Assembly (NCBI GenBank): GCA_951801955.1
Contig: CATOOV010000027.1
Location: 1-40,898, forward strand
Direction of reading: 5' to 3'
Source of the DNA: an uncultured Lachnospiraceae bacterium
GTDB lineage: Bacteria; Bacillota; Clostridia; Lachnospirales; Lachnospiraceae
DNA: 40,898 nucleotides
The notes beneath the pieces were generated by a model. The model was given only the letters and a program-made list of their open reading frames with translations, was not told the origin of the DNA and did not search any database. The stretch's first letter is position 1. Each line of letters begins with the position of its first letter. A program made the translations under genes and the position numbers. Positions 6,863 to 23,684 of the stretch are shown here, one piece after another.

Positions 6863-7007
6863 TCATATAGGAAATTCCTATATGAGAAAACTACCATGCG
6901 CACGCGCACAAGAGGAAACGAATGCTGCGCAAATGTGCGCGGCGCGGAATAAAAGATGCGTTAGCAAAAGAAAGTTGTTCGCTAAGGCGCATGAAACGCA
7001 CTTTTAT
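6861..7007 (+). repeat. structured tandem repeat, copy 1 (147 bp)
   Basis: It opens with a perfect 13+1+13 palindrome (6861-6887, TCTCATATAGGAA arms) and continues with a conserved body: GCGCAC...GTGCGC pair, GCGCGGAATAAAAGATGCG, then TGCGTT...AACGCA pair, ending CGCACTTTTAT. It lacks 11 bases of the palindrome loop found in copies 2 and 3. No coding sense is visible; short open frames across it are an effect of the repeat. Confidence 0.9.
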
Positions 7008-7165
7008 TCTCATATAGGAAATTCCTTCGAAATTCCTATATGAGAAAACTACTATGCGCACGAGCACAAGAGGAAACGAATGCTGCGCAAATGTGCGCGG
7101 CGCGGAATAAAAGATGTGTTAGCAAAAGAAAGTTGTTCGCCAAGGCGCATGAAACGCACTTTTAT
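7008..7165 (+). repeat. structured tandem repeat, copy 2 (158 bp)
   Basis: Nearly identical to copies 1 and 3. Its palindrome head has a longer loop containing CTTCG (7008-7045), resembling the hairpin at the atpG stop. It is in head-to-tail orientation with its neighbours. Confidence 0.9.
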
Positions 7166-7323
7166 TCTCATATAGGAAATTCCTTCGAAATTCCTATATG
7201 AGAAAACTACCATGCGCACGAGCACAAGAGGAAACGAATGCTGCGCAAATGTGCGCGGCGCGGAATAAAAGATGCGTTAGCAAAAGAAAGTTGTTCGCCA
7301 AGGCGCATGAAACGCACTTTTAT
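7166..7323 (+). repeat. structured tandem repeat, copy 3 (158 bp)
   Basis: It differs from copy 2 at only a few positions and ends at CGCACTTTTATTCT. The 158-bp period is exact between copies 2 and 3, which suggests recent duplication. Diverged relatives lie at 16065-16172 (inverted) and 21204-21345. Confidence 0.9.
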
Positions 7324-7327
7324 TCTT

Positions 7328-7637: not shown

Positions 7638-7666
7638 TGGACAGAAAAGTACCCGTAAAATATAAT
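7638..7666 (+). promoter_or_regulatory. promoter of the two-component operon
   Basis: TGGACA (7638-7643), a 17-base spacer, then TATAAT (7661-7666), 32 bases before the response regulator start. Sequence match to a sigma-A promoter is strong. Confidence 0.75.
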
Positions 7667-7698
7667 GAATAGATAGTACATACGAGGAGTTAATACAA

Positions 7699-8400
7699 AT
7701 GATAAAAGTAGGAATATGTGAAGATGATAAAATTTGCAGAGATACAGTAGGAAAACTTTTAGAATGGTATTTTGCAAAGAGAGAAACAAAATATTTGCAG
7801 AAGGAATATAAGTCTGGCAAAGAATTTATGGAAGAAAAAGAAAACATAGATATCTTAATTTTAGACATAGAGATGGAAGGAATTTCAGGGATTCAATTAA
7901 AAGACTGGCTGTGGAGAGAAGAGAAAGATGTCAAAATTCTCTTTGTGACAAGGCATGAGGAAGGGATGCCAGAGGCATTCGGAAAGAATGTATATGGATT
8001 TCTGCCCAAACCTTTGGAAATTACTGGTTTTGTAAAATATATGAATCGGATGATGGAGGATATAGATGAAGACCAGAGTTTTGTGATAAAAAGTTTAAAT
8101 AAGGATATTCCAATGAAAATGAAAAGCATTTTTTACTTTTTATCAGATAATAAGTATAGCTGGGTTATAAGCAACGATAAGAAATATTTTTGTGATGCTG
8201 GGCTGCATCAGTTAGAGCAGGATTTAAAGAAGAATTGGTTCTTTCGATGTCACAAATGCTATCTGGTAAACTTCAGGAATATAAGCAGGATTGAAGATGA
8301 AATCTATATGAAAAATGGGGATACGATCCCAATCAGCCGAAGGAAGGGAAAGGCGTTAAGGGATTCGTATCAAGAATATATTTTTAGGAAGGCGCGATAG
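7699..8400 (+). CDS. LytTR-family response regulator
   Basis: DNA-binding response regulator of 233 residues, AgrA/LytR type. The receiver domain (about 1-118) has the acidic pair D9/D10, phospho-acceptor D56 in LILDIEM, T84 and K104 in FLPKP. A LytTR domain (about 125-230) contains the typical FFRCHKCYLVNFRNISRI segment. It is encoded four bases before a GHKL kinase, with a consensus promoter upstream, so the pair forms one transcription unit. LytTR regulators bind paired direct repeats about two helical turns apart, and such a pair lies just downstream of the kinase at 9724-9749. The specific target is inferred. Confidence 0.93.
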   Translation: MIKVGICEDDKICRDTVGKLLEWYFAKRETKYLQKEYKSGKEFMEEKENIDILILDIEMEGISGIQLKDWLWREEKDVKILFVTRHEEGMPEAFGKNVYGFLPKPLEITGFVKYMNRMMEDIDEDQSFVIKSLNKDIPMKMKSIFYFLSDNKYSWVISNDKKYFCDAGLHQLEQDLKKNWFFRCHKCYLVNFRNISRIEDEIYMKNGDTIPISRRKGKALRDSYQEYIFRKAR

Positions 8401-8404
8401 ATCA

Positions 8405-9718
8405 ATGGAAATAGTGACAGAAGATGTATGGTTGGCTGTATTTTCCGTATTGGAAAATATGATTATGATATTTGGTATTTTTTGTGTACCAATTGCAAAG
8501 CACAAAAGATATTTTTTATTTGGTTTAGGTTTATTTTTAGGTTTATGTCTGGGGACTATTTGGTTGGGAGACAAAAAATTTGCTATTTTATCAATGCGAA
8601 TCTGTATGATTCCGGTCATTATATTGTTATGGACTAGTGGAAAGATAATTAGAAGGTTTGCGATTTACATATGCAGTACTATGTATCTACATATGCCGTA
8701 CCTATGTATTAATCTAGTGTGTTCTGGAATATCTGGAAAGTCAATGAATGATCTGAATGGTTATGTGGTATATAAAATTATTCGAGGAATTCTAACTTGT
8801 ATAATAATAGGGCTTTTGGCGTATCGACTGCGAAAAATATCAGGGTACAAGGAGCTTATCAATAACCTGCAGACAAAATATTTTTTAGTTGGAGGTGTTT
8901 GCAGCCTTGCGGCTTCTGTGGTACAACATTTTATTGAAGAGGCAAGTTTGGTAACTTATTATGATATGGAATTGGTAATCTGCATTATTATTTGTATGGT
9001 AATTGTCAGTACCATGTTTTATGCCTTGGGAGTGGGATTTGTGGTGATGGACCTGCTTCGGCAAAAATACAAGGCGGAGAGCAGTTTGAAAGATGAGTAC
9101 CTCCAGATTACCAGGGAGTATGTCCGTGTGGTGCGCAGGAATGCCAGGGAGACTAGGAAAATGCGCCACGACCTGCAGGCGCATATCAGCAGTTTAAGAC
9201 ATTATATGGAGAAGAAGGAGTATCGGAAGGCAGAATCGTATCTGTCTGCAATACAGGACCATATGACCCAGACCATATGCAAGACTGTGTCGGTAAACCA
9301 TGAGATTGTGGACGCGGTCTTGCTGGAGGCACAGTCACGGGGCGAACCCTACCAGATTCAGTGGAAAATTGAAGGAATCCTGCCTTCCGCCTTATCCATC
9401 GGAGATTTTGAGCTGTGTACGATTTTTTCCAACCTGCTGTCGAACAGCATTGAGGCATGTGAAAGGCTGCCTCAGAGCCAGCGTCAGATTCATTTGGAGA
9501 TCCGCCAGTTGGAGAACAATCTGGTCATTGAACTTGCCAATCCTGTCAGGGACCGGATTGACCTTGAGAGGCTGGGAAGCGTAACAACCAAAGAAGATGA
9601 AAAGAACCATGGGTTTGGAATTTCAAATATCAGGACGATGGTGGAGAAAAATCACGGTCGGCTGTTTTTTGAAGAACAGGAAGGAATTTTTCTGGCAAAA
9701 ATCCTGTTTTTGATGTAA
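8405..9718 (+). CDS. GHKL-domain sensor histidine kinase (AgrC-like)
   Basis: Membrane sensor kinase of 437 residues. The first ~215 residues contain about six hydrophobic segments, as in peptide-pheromone receptors of the AgrC/ComD type. A linker follows, with the H-box MRHDLQAH (H255), then the N-box FSNLLSNSIEACE (N343, N347) and the G-box GFGISN near 403-408. It partners the LytTR regulator four bases upstream. No AgrB-like protease is in the window, so if the ligand is a peptide, it may be unprocessed or matured elsewhere. The candidate peptide gene at 9896 lies directly downstream. Confidence 0.92.
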   Translation: MEIVTEDVWLAVFSVLENMIMIFGIFCVPIAKHKRYFLFGLGLFLGLCLGTIWLGDKKFAILSMRICMIPVIILLWTSGKIIRRFAIYICSTMYLHMPYLCINLVCSGISGKSMNDLNGYVVYKIIRGILTCIIIGLLAYRLRKISGYKELINNLQTKYFLVGGVCSLAASVVQHFIEEASLVTYYDMELVICIIICMVIVSTMFYALGVGFVVMDLLRQKYKAESSLKDEYLQITREYVRVVRRNARETRKMRHDLQAHISSLRHYMEKKEYRKAESYLSAIQDHMTQTICKTVSVNHEIVDAVLLEAQSRGEPYQIQWKIEGILPSALSIGDFELCTIFSNLLSNSIEACERLPQSQRQIHLEIRQLENNLVIELANPVRDRIDLERLGSVTTKEDEKNHGFGISNIRTMVEKNHGRLFFEEQEGIFLAKILFLM

Positions 9719-9723
9719 AATTG

Positions 9724-9749
9724 ACCGTTGTCTCCAAAATTCGACCGTT
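9724..9749 (+). promoter_or_regulatory. tandem LytTR-type binding site
   Basis: Two identical ACCGTT hexamers start at 9724 and 9744 (20-bp spacing), each preceded by AAATT-like sequence. They lie six bases after the kinase stop and 13 bases upstream of a -35 element. Paired ACNGTT-type direct repeats about two turns apart are the known target form for AgrA/LytTR regulators. Binding by the adjacent regulator is inferred. Confidence 0.6.
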
Positions 9750-9762
9750 TATTCCATGATTC

Positions 9763-9792
9763 TTGCATTTTGCCCTTGATATTGAGTAGAAT
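9763..9792 (+). promoter_or_regulatory. promoter after the LytTR boxes
   Basis: TTGCAT (9763-9768), an 18-base spacer and TAGAAT (9787-9792). The weak -35 directly downstream of the direct repeats is what an activator-dependent promoter would look like. It would drive the small ORF at 9896 and perhaps the genes beyond. Confidence 0.5.
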
Positions 9793-9895
9793 AAAGGCAG
9801 GTACTTGTAAAGGTGTCAGGCAGTCAGACTTTCCGATGTTCTATTCCGATAGTTTTACAAACGCCGAATAAAAATAGGAGCGGAGGTGATATGAG

Positions 9896-9961
9896 ATGCC
9901 GTTGGCATATGATGAATCATTTTGGGAGTGGTTAAAGATGCTCTTGGGCGGAAAGAAATAA
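9896..9961 (+). CDS. candidate 21-residue peptide under LytTR control
   Basis: A short ORF with a good ribosome binding site (GGAGGTGAT at 9882-9890, nine bases from GGAGG to ATG). It encodes 21 residues starting MPLAYDESFWEW and ending LGGKK. The middle (FWEWLKMLL) is aromatic and amphipathic as a helix. There is no signal peptide and no cysteine, so it is not a classical AgrD. Its size, lack of leader and position behind a LytTR-type promoter recall phenol-soluble modulins or leaderless peptides controlled by AgrA, but no homology is claimed. An overlapping ATG at 9891 gives a less plausible 14-codon frame. Confidence 0.4.
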   Translation: MPLAYDESFWEWLKMLLGGKK

Positions 9962-9993
9962 GCCCTGCGTCATATATGAAAATATAAAGACCG

Positions 9994-10229
9994 TACAAAA
10001 GAGGGAAGTAGTGTACAAAAGAAAAAAGATGTACGGAAAAGAAAGCGTAGATTTACAAAAGAGGAAACGTGAATTTACATAAGAAATCGTATAAGGTGCA
10101 AAAGAGGATAGTAGATTTGCAAAAGAGGAATTGTAGATTTACATAAGTAGTATAAGGCGCAAAAGAAAAATACAGAATTGCAGGTATAATTTATGCAGAT
10201 TTGTAAAATGAATCGATTGTACGAAAGAG
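9994..10229 (+). repeat. helically phased array of TACAAAAGAGG-like motifs
   Basis: Variants of TACAAAAG(AGG) begin at 9994, 10014, 10032, 10054, 10076, 10097, 10118, 10140, 10158 and 10220, with weaker units at about 10179 and 10202. Mean spacing is about 20-21 bp, two DNA turns. All frames contain stops, so it is not coding. The RNA would be almost pure purine and weakly structured. Spacers are not unique and the repeats are not palindromic, so it is not a CRISPR array. Confidence 0.7.
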
Positions 10230-10303
10230 GATAAGGAGTATTTAATCTTTATAAAAATGTAACTGCAGGGGAGAACTGCAGCATGACTGAAATCGGAAAG
10301 TAA

Positions 10304-10353
10304 CATGAAAAGGACTGTATTAGGTGGGGGAGACCATACAGTTCCTTTTCATG
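10304..10353 (+). promoter_or_regulatory. hairpin covering a start codon
   Basis: CATGAAAAGGA-CTGTAT (10304-10320) pairs with ATACAG-T-TCCTTTTCATG (10336-10353), 17 bp with one bulged base and a 15-base loop. The right arm ends in the ATG at 10351, and the loop holds an alternative GTG at 10324. This is likely to limit translation of the following ORF unless opened. No T-run follows. Confidence 0.6.
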
Positions 10354-10533
10354 CAGGAAAAAGATGATTTGGCATTTGGAGATCGGCAAATGAAAGTTGT
10401 TTCAAGATTTCCCATAAAGAGTATAAAAACTTTTCTAAGCAGGAAAAGGGGTGTGGCAATGGCAGACATTGTAGTAACGGTTATGGCAGTCGGAGTTTTA
10501 TCTTCAGCTTACATTTGCGACAGTCCATATTAA
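10351..10533 (+). CDS. small membrane protein or 5' part of a broken gene
   Basis: Sixty codons from the ATG at 10351 (a GTG at 10324 would add nine). A basic N-terminal part (KSIKTFLSRKRG) is followed by a hydrophobic stretch VAMADIVVTVMAVGVL and then ends CDSPY. The basic-then-hydrophobic layout fits a membrane anchor or a prepilin-like leader, but I do not recognise the family. The +1 frame stays open from 10478 through 10945 and continues hydrophobic sequence, so this is probably the first half of a longer gene with a frameshift near 10496-10500 (a short T run). Confidence 0.4.
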   Translation: MQEKDDLAFGDRQMKVVSRFPIKSIKTFLSRKRGVAMADIVVTVMAVGVLSSAYICDSPY

Positions 10534-10564
10534 CCACATCCATGTCAGATTAAATGGATTCCAG

Positions 10565-10945
10565 TTGTACAGCAAGGAAGAATTGTCACAGGCGGCGAAT
10601 GCTTTGGAATGGTATTTTTTCCAGCATATGGCGGGCTGTGAATTACAAGAAATCGATGATAGGAAGTGGATTCCTTGTGATATCAGTAAAGGTATGGGAC
10701 AAGAGAATGGAATCAAAGATTCAAAAGAAGTATTGGTAGTATCCATATCTTACTTGGAAAAACTCGGCTTTCACCCGATTTTCTCACAGTTACCATCCAA
10801 AGGCACGAGATATACAGAAGAATGGCTGCTTGCCAGGAACGGAGATGATGCCAACTGGAAAGTGGCAGGTTTTTTGGGGGTGGGTAGGAAGGTGAAAAGG
10901 GAGCAGAAAAAGATTGTTGTAAACAGAGGGAGTGGGTATGATTGA
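10565..10945 (+). CDS. uncharacterised protein, probably the 3' part of a frameshifted gene
   Basis: An open frame of 126 codons from a TTG at 10565; the same frame is open back to 10478 and reads ...TFATVHINHIHVRLNGFQLYSKEEL. There is no ATG and no good ribosome binding site near 10565. The best reading is a fusion with the frame starting at 10351, giving a protein of about 195-200 residues with one membrane segment and a C-terminal soluble domain rich in charged residues. No family is recognised. The stop overlaps the start of the next small ORF (10938), so the genes are coupled. Confidence 0.5.
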   Translation: MYSKEELSQAANALEWYFFQHMAGCELQEIDDRKWIPCDISKGMGQENGIKDSKEVLVVSISYLEKLGFHPIFSQLPSKGTRYTEEWLLARNGDDANWKVAGFLGVGRKVKREQKKIVVNRGSGYD

Positions 10946-11063
10946 TTTTGGCATATTTATAACGTTAAGTGTTACGATATTAGGTATTTATTTTCCAATC
11001 TTTATTGATCTGAAAAAAGATATTGATGATATAAAAGAAATAAAAGAACCATCAAAAAAATAA
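10938..11063 (+). CDS. small single-span membrane protein
   Basis: A 41-residue ORF. Residues 1-22 are hydrophobic (MIDFGIFITLSVTILGIYF...), followed by a charged tail rich in Lys, Asp and Glu that ends KEPSKK. It starts eight bases inside the preceding gene, which supports translational coupling. Function unknown; size and layout resemble holin-like or regulatory microproteins, but nothing specific can be claimed. Confidence 0.5.
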   Translation: MIDFGIFITLSVTILGIYFPIFIDLKKDIDDIKEIKEPSKK

Positions 11064-11092
11064 AAAAGAAATTAGAGAACAGGAAGAAATAT

Positions 11093-11571
11093 ATGATTTT
11101 AGTACATATTTTTTTTGTTTCTTATGTTATTGTTTCTGTTAGTTCTTTATCTGTTACCTCAAATTATTAATGGAGTTCAAAATATAAGGTTAGTCACATT
11201 ATCAGATGTAAGAGATGGATTGGGTAAGCTATTACCATTTAAAAAAGGATATTTTGATAATGATAATTTCACTTTTTCTTTCATTACAGAAAGCATTTTA
11301 GCAATACTTGTGTTAATCATTTTTTGGGGGGGGTACATATGAAGCCTTGGAAGATGGGCATGTGAGTTCTTTATCAGCTAGAATCATAATTTTTACAATA
11401 TCCACAGTGTTTTTGGTTATGGGATTCATTTGGGCGAATAATTTTATTTCGTTATTTTTAGTACGCTGTATTATACATTTCTTTCCGTTATTTTCTATCG
11501 TTTCCAATATTATAATTTATATTGTAATATTTCTAGTAATAATGCTGTTCTTTTGGAGTATGGATAAGTAA
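11093..11571 (+). pseudogene. multi-span membrane protein gene, frame broken at T8 and G8 tracts
   Basis: Three consecutive frames rebuild one protein of about 158 residues. The ATG at 11093 has AGGAAG upstream and reads MILVHIF. Removing one T from the T8 run (about 11109-11116) continues into FLMLLFLLVLYLLPQIINGV. Removing one G from the G8 run (about 11327-11335) joins WGGTYEALEDGHVSS, which reads to TAA at 11569-11571. The joined product has about four or five membrane segments. The two breaks at homopolymers mean either phase-variable expression, a pseudogene or sequencing error. No family is recognised. It is the last gene of the LytTR-linked cluster. Confidence 0.5.
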
Positions 11572-20149: not shown

Positions 20150-20958
20150 TCAGGCTGTGGCGACCTGCGTTTGACTATTCGGTACCCATCCAAGTTTTTT
20201 TAACTTTTTCAGATAGGCGTTTATCTTTCTTTCACGGTTAAACTGGTTATAATAATCACACCCTAAGTCCTTATACGGGAAATTTTCTTTTAATACGTGG
20301 TATATTGCTGTCAACATTGAATGGGCTGCTGCTACATACGCCCTCTTGTTTTCTCTATCTTGTTCCGGTCTGCTTTCAGCCTCCCGTCTACCAACTCTTC
20401 CAGGCGCTTTTCATTGATCTCATTTCCTGACAGCAGCTCCTCCAGGATCTTCCTCCCGCTTTTCCCGTTAATGTTTGAAATCGTAGCTGATAGTTTTATG
20501 TTTGCACCTTCCAGCATTTTCTGCAGCCGGTTCCGTTCCTGGTTCTTTTCCTGGACCAGGCTTTTCGGGTAAGGGACCAGTCCCCTTAATTCCCCCTGGT
20601 TCCGTTCCGGAATATAACTCGCCTTTAATAAACCATGCTGCAGCAGGTCTGCTATCCATTTCGCGTCCTTTGCGTCTGTTTTCCTGCCGGGTACCGCTTT
20701 CATATGCTGCACATTGACTACCATGGCTTTTAATTCTGCGGATTCAAAAACGTTGTACAAAGGCTTCCAATAAGACGCGGCGCTTTCCATAGCGATCATT
20801 TCACACTTATTTCCCATAAGCCAGCCTGCTATTTTCAGGAGTTCCTTTGTGGTGGTCCCAAACCCCCTTAATTCATTAGACGTCCCATTTCGAAAACACG
20901 CCACAATCAGTTTCTTATGCACGTCTATGCCACAACAGCGCTCGTATACTTTTTCCAT
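20150..20958 (-). pseudogene. IS110-family transposase, internally deleted
   Basis: The N-terminal DEDD/RuvC-like domain is intact from 20958 (MEKVYERCCGIDVHKK, then MESAASYWKPLY, then KTDAKDAKWIADLL). The frame stops at a TAG near 20333. The last ~70 residues (AYVAAAHSMLTAIYHVLK...KKLGW) continue in another frame to a TGA at 20150-20152. The middle, including the transposase_20 domain with its catalytic serine, is missing: about 280 residues remain against ~400. The junction falls at GGGCGTATG, which would encode RGRM on one side and RAYV on the other, consistent with deletion between short direct repeats. The ribosome binding site GGGAGGAA precedes the start. It should be inactive. Confidence 0.85.
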
Positions 20959-21203
20959 GTTCAATTCCTCCCATTTCAAAAATCTACGGCGTGAACGCCT
21001 GTCCCCCTATTATTTTCCTTTACGTCCTTCTACCTATGGCTGGATAATTCGTGGTGCAATGAGGAGTTCATGAATCAGTTTCCTATACGGGCTTCATGCC
21101 CAAAATTCGTTCAACCGCTGCCGCATACATGAAGTATACTCTTTCAGAACGTAAATTCATAGCCATGTTTCATTTATCGTGGTGCTTTATAGAAGCATGG
21201 GGG
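20959..21203 (-). mobile_element. upstream noncoding part of the IS110 element
   Basis: About 245 bases without a gene, upstream of the transposase on its strand. In IS110 elements this region specifies the bridge (seek) RNA that pairs with target and donor DNA. Partial self-complementarity is visible, but I cannot define loops or the element end. The boundary toward 21204, where a copy of the structured repeat begins, is a guess. Confidence 0.4.
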
Positions 21204-23560: not shown

Positions 23561-23684
23561 TATATGTCCCTGGCATCATCCTACCGTATTAAGAAATAAC
23601 ATACGTGCTGGTGCAAAAAATGTATATGCCCCTGGCATCATCCTACCGTATTAAGAAATAACATACGTGCTGGTGCAAAAAAAG
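23561..23684 (+). repeat. 62-bp tandem duplication upstream of the lipoprotein-like gene
   Basis: The unit TATATG(T/C)CCCTGGCATC...GTGCTGGTGCAAAAAA occurs at 23561-23622 and 23623-23684, nearly identical. The second copy ends at the ribosome binding site of the gene at 23694, so the duplication lengthens or doubles its 5' control region. I cannot see a clear promoter in the unit. Confidence 0.9.

Follow-up and report, generated by a model that had tools for sequence, protein, structure and literature searches.

The locus described here probably consists of a two-component system that drives a dual-function RNA, i.e., one transcript made up of a peptide message and an RNA body, in the manner of agr-RNAIII, FasX, VR-RNA, and SpoZ; no AgrB was detected. 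This reading was reached by sequence comparison and by analogy with described systems. The locus lies in a window of 40,898 nucleotides, the whole stretch of DNA analyzed, from an uncultured Lachnospiraceae bacterium. Its regulator, kinase, LytTR-type repeats, 21-codon ORF, and array form one real, coherent locus (Table 1). The GHKL kinase and the LytTR regulator would control a single dedicated promoter just 3' of their own genes. Once phosphorylated, as family knowledge suggests, the regulator would bind the two boxes, and RNA polymerase would make an RNA of about 550 nt. The 5' part of this RNA would be the message for a Trp-rich peptide some 20 residues long. The remainder would be a regulatory body in which a 5'-3' helix closes, the RCNAAAGA copies stay unpaired, and an intrinsic terminator ends the transcript. 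At the sequence level, the ordered module, the coding peptide, the terminator, and the motif enrichment are established. Searches of the open-licence literature brought up no description of an RNA or peptide of this type from Lachnospiraceae.

Table 1 Features of the locus (window coordinates)
Feature	Position	Strand	Basis
LytTR response regulator, 233 aa	7699..8400	+	Pfam Response_reg and LytTR
GHKL sensor histidine kinase, 437 aa	8405..9718	+	Pfam HATPase_c_5; same-genus orthologues
Tandem LytTR-type boxes, ACCGTT at 9724 and 9744	9724..9755	+	Genome search; position 3' of kinase shared with relatives
Putative target promoter, TTGCAT-18-TAGAAT	9763..9792	+	Read from sequence; aligned in seven loci
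Inferred dual-function RNA, 552 nt	9799..10350	+	Both ends inferred; alignment, 3'-end model
5' box ACTTTCCGAT, closing-helix strand	9828..9837	+	Alignment, folding
21-aa Trp-rich peptide MPLAYDESFWEWLKMLLGGKK	9896..9961	+	Ribosome site; conservation; pN/pS
Array, seven copies of RCNAAAGA, mostly predicted unpaired	9993..10240	+	Enrichment; folding prediction
3' box ATCGGAAAGT, complement of 5' box	10292..10301	+	Folding
Intrinsic terminator hairpin	10304..10350	+	Compensatory changes across seven loci
Companion-gene remnant, homologue of a membrane-anchored protein, N-terminal part out of frame	10461..10945	+	27-39% identity to ORFs in L038, L040, L044, L046, and L054

A first-pass annotation, made from the letters alone, had proposed a LytTR/GHKL regulator-kinase pair with direct repeats of LytTR type before an adjoining target promoter. 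Pfam domains bear out the pair, and the boxes and putative promoter were found 3' of the kinase. The pair has a promoter-like site of its own (TGGACA-17-TATAAT, at 7638), and orthologues of the kinase with 49-63% identity occur in 10 same-genus genomes. LytTR and GHKL domains are present, and the regulator scored 37.7 bits against the AgrA model, whose cut-off is 400; the NCBIfam matches of the kinase included no AgrC model. The absence of AgrB, also claimed earlier, held for the genome of origin (88.76% complete), in which PF04647 had no match. The ACCGTT repeats stand 20 bp apart, 5' of the promoter. A search for the box pair with up to three mismatches gave one match in the own genome, as did the reversed control, and 15 matches in the genus versus 11 for the reversed control. 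Only the placement of the boxes is therefore informative, and they adjoin a kinase or regulator in 14 of the 15 genomes with a match. The regulator tree, built without L054 and L068 and with the single L034 regulator labeled "2ndRR", has forks that stay open and an outgroup on long branches, and does not decide the direction of evolution. Alignment A1 excludes L006 (G013), where the kinase is interrupted.

Besides the window locus, six of the 10 same-genus relatives with an orthologous kinase carry the module after it. It begins with the tandem boxes and the promoter, continues with the conserved leader, the peptide ORF, and the RCNAAAGA copies, and ends with a 3' box, whose sequence complements the leader, followed by an intrinsic terminator; the inferred RNA measures 400-614 nt across the loci. 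The 3'-end model matches seven of 29 same-genus genomes, the same seven from which it was built, with five further weak matches (30-34 bits). Against 299 family genomes (one per genus, except two from the genus of the window; stricter filters), it found two strong matches, both within the genus, and seven others at 30-36 bits. These seven and the five weak genus matches were taken as ordinary terminators.

The order expected earlier to be conserved, regulator-kinase-array-small membrane genes, is replaced in the relatives by regulator-kinase-box-peptide-array-terminator. Past the terminator, the neighboring genes vary by lineage (we take those of the relatives, by recognition, to be bioY, phosphopentomutase-like, and amidohydrolase-like genes), so the RNA unit stands alone. 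The three small membrane genes annotated in the window do exist as ORFs; they lie beyond the terminator and outside the conserved unit. The downstream ORFs of 43, 75, and 74 aa had no match in 172 partly overlapping loci, save one at E 0.89. The ORF at 10565-10945 is a relative of the membrane-anchored protein of sister loci, and this companion protein matched DUF4829 only below the cut-off. Since the terminator ends the unit before them, the small membrane genes are unlikely to be the principal output at this locus. Alternatively, the unit could be a cis-acting leader, with terminator and array attenuating read-through to the next gene, ancestrally the companion membrane protein. The companion gene directly follows the leader or array in L038, L044, L046, and L054, and the window retains its remnant 3' of the terminator. 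However, the RNA is conserved in L032-L037 although unrelated genes follow it there, and attenuation appears improbable.

The peptide ORF, noted earlier for its 21 codons and good ribosome binding site (GGAGGTG), proved to be conserved. The modules of the relatives encode Trp-rich peptides of 19-20 aa, and pN/pS is 0.34 in frame versus 0.71 and 1.80 in the other frames. By these sequence measures, the ORF evolves as coding sequence, under coding constraint. Amphipathicity is high in six of the seven RNA-borne peptides; the helical moment of the window peptide is unremarkable (75th percentile). None of the tested peptides matched a family model. At 15-21 residues, such peptides fall below the size that gene finders usually call, and kinase-linked peptides may thus be an overlooked class: several other GHKL kinases also have similar tiny Trp-rich ORFs beside them.

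In the terminator hairpin, five of 15 pairs are changed on both sides across the seven loci, which was reached by 3 of 500 shuffles; its U-run in the window is weak. The earlier "hairpin over a start codon" is a real hairpin, best read as this intrinsic terminator. The whole RNA folds with z scores from -2.7 to -5.2. Without the terminator, z drops to between -0.1 and -1.5 in the six relatives, no better than shuffles, with -4.0 in the window, and a strongly folded RNA body was rejected as a common feature. RNAIII is closed by pairing of its 5' and 3' parts, and its 3' end controls translation. A closing 5'-3' helix was predicted in all seven loci. Since this helix hardly varies, covariation provides no support for it, and its paired percentage was reached by 226 of 500 shuffles. 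In five of seven loci, the predicted accessibility of the ribosome site hardly depends on whether the 3' end is present; in L035 and L036, it rises from 0.24 and 0.23 to 0.49 when the 3' box is included. The effect of the 3' end is therefore not consistent, and gating of translation as in RNAIII was rejected.

The RCNAAAGA array is enriched in all seven loci, with 1-7 copies per locus and just one in L034. The seven window copies start between 9995 and 10221, versus a mean of 0.27 and a maximum of 3 in 500 dinucleotide shuffles. The copies have a mean predicted unpaired probability of 0.93, compared to 0.46 for all positions; that of the single L034 copy is 0.50. The array had been described as phased, and the window spacings (20, 40, 43, 21, 40, and 62) are indeed near multiples of 20. 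Spacings near 20 and 40 bp recur in L032 and L033, as would suit a DNA element whose phased A-tracts bend the DNA. In L035-L037, however, the spacings are 18-23 and 52-54, and with the one copy in L034 this means that helical phasing is not conserved. Moreover, many copies in the relatives read CCAAAG or CGAAAG, with three consecutive A only, and the array lies 3' of the promoter, inside the terminated unit. Bent DNA was rejected on the spacings and short A runs of the relatives and is very improbable; judged from sequence, the array is more plausibly an element of the RNA. A coding array was likewise discarded, as spacings such as 20, 40, 41, and 38 are not multiples of three.

Two candidate partners of the array were also rejected. 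Sponge RNAs of the CsrB type carry repeated unpaired GGA motifs. Here, GGA falls inside the motif in five of seven window copies, one of six in L032, and none of 19 in L033-L037, and CsrA copy number is untied to the RNA (3, 1, 1, 2, 1, 1, and 1 in the genomes with the RNA; between 1 and 8 in the 22 others). No match to Hfq (PF17209) was found in the genome of origin, at 88.76% completeness.

A simpler view is that the unit is a short mRNA, with the peptide alone as output, either as signal or as membrane-active effector, and with the array and 3' end merely protecting or terminating the message. In agreement with this, five loci (L040, L041, L042, L068, and L071) make a similar peptide from a short leader without an array, and with the terminator set aside, six of the seven RNAs show ordinary folding stability. 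Nevertheless, the RCNAAAGA core is retained while flanks and copy number vary, and L044 and L054 still carry copies of the motif although they have lost the peptide. The short mRNA is a less likely alternative to the dual-function RNA.

The closest design among known systems is the agr locus of Staphylococcus aureus, where a LytTR-type regulator acting at P3 yields one RNAIII of about 500 nt with a structured body, which encodes delta-hemolysin (PMC7602753). The present locus similarly has a LytTR-type regulator beside a putative target promoter and a small-peptide ORF in an inferred RNA of about 550 nt. Unlike in agr, no AgrB was found, the peptide is Trp-rich, a purine-rich motif array is present, and the RNA follows immediately after the kinase and shares its strand. 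RNAIII binds ribosome sites through unpaired C-rich UCCC motifs (PMC2837412); UCCC or CCCC motifs are absent from all seven locus RNAs. Rfam searches of window positions 9700-10420, up to E 10, returned only mir-9186 (E 7.1), and no RNAIII match was found at gathering thresholds in L032, L034, and L037. Membership in RNAIII was rejected on these grounds: the locus RNA is not RNAIII itself but an unrelated RNA in an RNAIII-like design. Phenol-soluble modulins have about 20 residues and no leader. They are described as small, amphipathic, and agr-controlled, and include delta-hemolysin (PMC7602753). The locus peptide differs from them in being Trp-rich, in matching no family model, and in being encoded next to its own kinase.

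Within Clostridia, the VirR-like regulator of Clostridioides difficile RgaSR activates the ~560-nt SpoZ via direct repeats, and RgaR has further targets, including agrB1D1 (PMC10602386). Class, direct repeats, and RNA length are alike; the published account presents SpoZ as a regulatory RNA that runs antisense to an ORF, and not as a peptide message (PMC10602386), in contrast to the peptide-coding RNA here. VirSR of Clostridium perfringens leads to VR-RNA (386 nt), and FasBCA of Streptococcus pyogenes to FasX (205 nt), encoded within the fasBCAX locus (PMC7602753). Both share the regulatory RNA output of a two-component system; a kinase-linked Trp-rich peptide and an RCNAAAGA array set the present locus apart from the descriptions given there (PMC7602753). 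LytTR-driven Clostridia RNAs of similar length (SpoZ, VR-RNA) were counted in favor of the dual-function reading. If that reading is true, the RNAIII design, a single regulator-driven RNA that serves as peptide message and regulator at once, emerged beyond the staphylococci as well: in commensal Clostridia, some of which are in culture, such as the relative Lachnospiraceae strain X68 (QXWW01000002), and apparently in the absence of the agr processing enzyme.

Beyond the dual-function RNA, the peptide might leave the cell unprocessed or insert in the membrane and be sensed by the neighboring kinase, while the array might act in trans via an RNA-binding protein or target RNAs. In its most specific form, the proposal would be an independently evolved RNAIII counterpart in gut Lachnospiraceae, forming a self-contained signaling unit. 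The kinase next to it would have as its ligand a Trp-rich peptide of some 20 residues that stays unprocessed and needs no maturation enzyme, and the message of this peptide would double as a sponge RNA whose RCNAAAGA array titrates an RNA-binding protein, uniting signal and effector in one molecule. This form is speculative and rather doubtful. Whether AgrC-like kinases can have unprocessed amphipathic peptides as ligands could be tested directly with this locus.

The first-pass annotation had the kinase sensing a local product. In three loci, the kinase is missing between regulator and box, and the peptide is missing in all three; 13 of 16 loci with the kinase have the peptide (p 0.021). This comparison omits L055 (box in G012; 210 bases 5' of box) and the more distant kinases L018, L020, L073-L096, and L116-L145. 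The co-loss, which is weak, is consistent with the peptide being the unprocessed ligand that the kinase may sense. On the other side, L035 has a kinase with an in-frame TAG and nevertheless keeps the whole RNA and the peptide; with this kinase counted as broken, the association has a p of 0.071.

Sequence comparison shows four things at this locus: a module of fixed order, a peptide ORF that is coding, a terminator and the enrichment of a short motif. The regulator-kinase pair of the first-pass annotation was confirmed by Pfam for both members. In a protein search of 61 genomes, including the window's own, kinase orthologues turned up in 10 genomes of the same genus (49-63% identity), and one genome of the same family had a relative at 32%; these 11 kinase regions were fetched as loci L032-L042. 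Among named records, orthologous kinases are carried by Lachnospiraceae isolates and MAGs, including strain X68. Two ACCGTT-type boxes and a promoter lie 3' of the kinase in all 11 loci (the second box is degenerate in L042). In 10 loci a Trp-rich ORF comes next, 18-21 codons long and preceded by a ribosome site; the exception is L039, with a stop after only nine codons. Behind the ORF, the window and six relatives (L032-L037) carry the array, then a conserved 3' block and the terminator. In L035 and L037, a tandem pair of LytTR regulators was seen upstream of the kinase.

Positions of the features in the window
Feature	Position	Strand
Tandem 158-bp units	6871-7326	
LytTR regulator	7699-8400	+
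GHKL kinase	8405-9718	+
LytTR-type boxes	9724..9755	
Inferred RNA	9799-10350	+
Closing helix, 5' box	9828..9837	
Peptide ORF	9896-9961	
RCNAAAGA array	9993..10240	
Closing helix, 3' box	10292..10301	
Terminator	10304..10350	
Membrane-anchored-protein homologue	10565-10945	
Eight-G run	11327-11350	
Truncated transposase-like ORF	20332-20979	-
62-bp tandem duplicate	23561-23682	

The box pair matched once in the own genome at up to 3 mismatches, against one match of the reversed control. Among the 29 same-genus genomes, it matched once each in 15 (up to 2 mismatches). Because the control gave 11 matches in total, this number is uninformative and the evidence lies in placement: 11 matches stand after an orthologous kinase, 3 directly after a regulator and 1 (genome G012) elsewhere. 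At the latter site (L055), the pair precedes a putative secreted-protein gene, without a peptide; by eye, the gene resembles a member of the L041 cluster.

The peptide ORF is, judged by its sequence, coding. Across the seven loci that carry the RNA, pN/pS is lower in the peptide frame (0.34) than in the two others (0.71 and 1.80), and differences peak at third positions (0.50 vs 0.32 and 0.24). The helical moment exceeds the 92nd percentile of permutations in six of the seven RNA-borne peptides; the window peptide stands at the 75th. NCBIfam models gave no match to the peptides tested, nor did Pfam models to the window peptide. Outside the orthologues, 59 GHKL kinase ORFs were scanned by script and judged by eye. 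Tiny Trp-rich ORFs lie 3' of the kinase at L018, L020, L068, L071 and L084, and 5' of it at L085; the L042 locus was present twice, as L069 and L141, also with a tiny ORF. Direct repeats precede several of these other ORFs. Kinase-linked tiny Trp-rich ORFs are thus, by eye, a minority yet recurrent class. L018, L020, L084 and L085 are GHKL/LytTR pairs at which the tiny ORF apparently has direct repeats of its own upstream.

Inferred RNA length (ends from promoter and terminator), RCNAAAGA copies, mean unpaired probability of the motif, and peptide
Locus	RNA (nt)	Copies	Unpaired	Peptide
Window	552	7	0.93	MPLAYDESFWEWLKMLLGGKK
L032	614	6	0.79	MLLSHDEDLWEWLKRLMGW
L033	611	7	0.78	
L034	400	1	0.50	
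L035	407	4	0.76	MFYAYDDNLWELLKKLFGW
L036	423	4	0.70	
L037	401	3	0.82	
L041				MLLSKDFWFWNWFRKFWK
L071 (Roseburia, more distant)				MLLSASSEIWEWIWGLLRN
L068 (more distant)				MYFANDNTIWEWILSILNGGR

In the terminator, 96.2% of cells are paired across the seven loci and 5 of 15 pairs are changed on both sides, a count equalled by 3 of 500 shuffles; its covariation score was equalled by 1 of 500 and its further pair types by 155 of 500. The closing helix (ACUUUCCGAU/AUCGGAAAGU) is predicted in all seven RNAs with pair probabilities of 0.54-1.00 (>0.85 in all but three of 63), and 92.8% of its cells are paired vs 24-63% on sliding. It is nearly invariant, its pairing is not above shuffles, and complements as long occur in 2-40 per 1000 shuffles, depending on the RNA. 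With the terminator removed, the RNAs of the six relatives are no more stably folded than shuffled sequences, which counts against a strongly folded body. The seven loci served to build a 3'-end model, which gives 82-107 bits in their own genomes and no more than 34 bits in the rest of the genus; among 299 family genomes, strong matches occurred only in the two of the window's genus. Rfam gave no meaningful match to the RNA.

Shuffle means for the RCNAAAGA motif were 0.12-0.36 copies, and the unpaired probability over all positions was 0.40-0.46. Hfq was not found in the own genome (3.62 Mb, 88.76% complete, the window being one contig of it). CsrA, present there in three copies, was rejected as array partner, as neither motif nor distribution fits: the 29 same-genus genomes have 1 to 8 matches each, a copy number that is unusual and does not vary with the presence of the RNA.

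From knowledge of the family, the boxed promoter should be activated by the phosphorylated LytTR regulator. Two further steps are hypothetical: feedback of the peptide on the kinase, and binding of a protein or RNAs in trans by the array. Three loci (L044, L046, L054) have boxes directly 3' of the regulator, without a kinase or an intact peptide, which is intact in 13 of 16 kinase-bearing loci (exceptions L039, L070 and L072; one-sided Fisher p 0.021, the loci being related). A single in-frame TAG, either a real interruption or an assembly error, stands in the L035 kinase (codon 71 of the stretch matched), yet peptide and RNA look intact there; scored as broken, this kinase raises p to 0.071. 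Since the loci share kinship, this co-loss only hints that the peptide may be the kinase's ligand. The joint reading, an unprocessed peptide as ligand of the adjacent kinase plus an array titrating an RNA-binding protein as a sponge, seems rather unlikely, and slightly more so in view of the L035 kinase.

By analogy, the unit probably works like RNAIII without belonging to the RNAIII family. RNAIII is 514 nt long and also encodes delta-hemolysin, two-component systems control further RNAs, FasX and VR-RNA (PMC7602753), and C-rich loops of RNAIII bind targets (PMC2837412). This C-rich motif is absent from all seven RNAs. C. difficile has SpoZ, of about 560 nt, which RgaR activates via direct repeats (PMC10602386). 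No earlier description of this locus was found in the open-licence papers searched.

The unstable membrane genes, which the first-pass annotation had included in the locus, fall outside the unit, as it stops at the terminator upstream of them. The product of 10565-10945, its N-terminal part out of frame in the window, is related, at 27-39% identity, to ORFs that L038, L040, L044, L046 and L054 carry beyond the box; the other three small ORFs had no match below E 0.8 among 172 loci. An eight-G run separates membrane ORFs of 75 and 74 aa, which may be one gene split by this slippery run. In other relatives, a similar promoter and peptide are followed by other cargo: L039 and L041 have subtilases, and L071 has a C39-peptidase ABC transporter and then a protein whose bacteriocin match is below the cut-off.

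The locus is flanked by what we take to be the atp operon and by bioY-bioB-bioD (BioY by Pfam, bioB and bioD presumed by recognition). Upstream of the regulator, about 2.9 copies of the tandem unit were seen, with an inverted repeat inside each. Elsewhere in the window lie a truncated ORF, presumably an IS110-type transposase, and the 62-bp duplicate, with two nearly identical copies.
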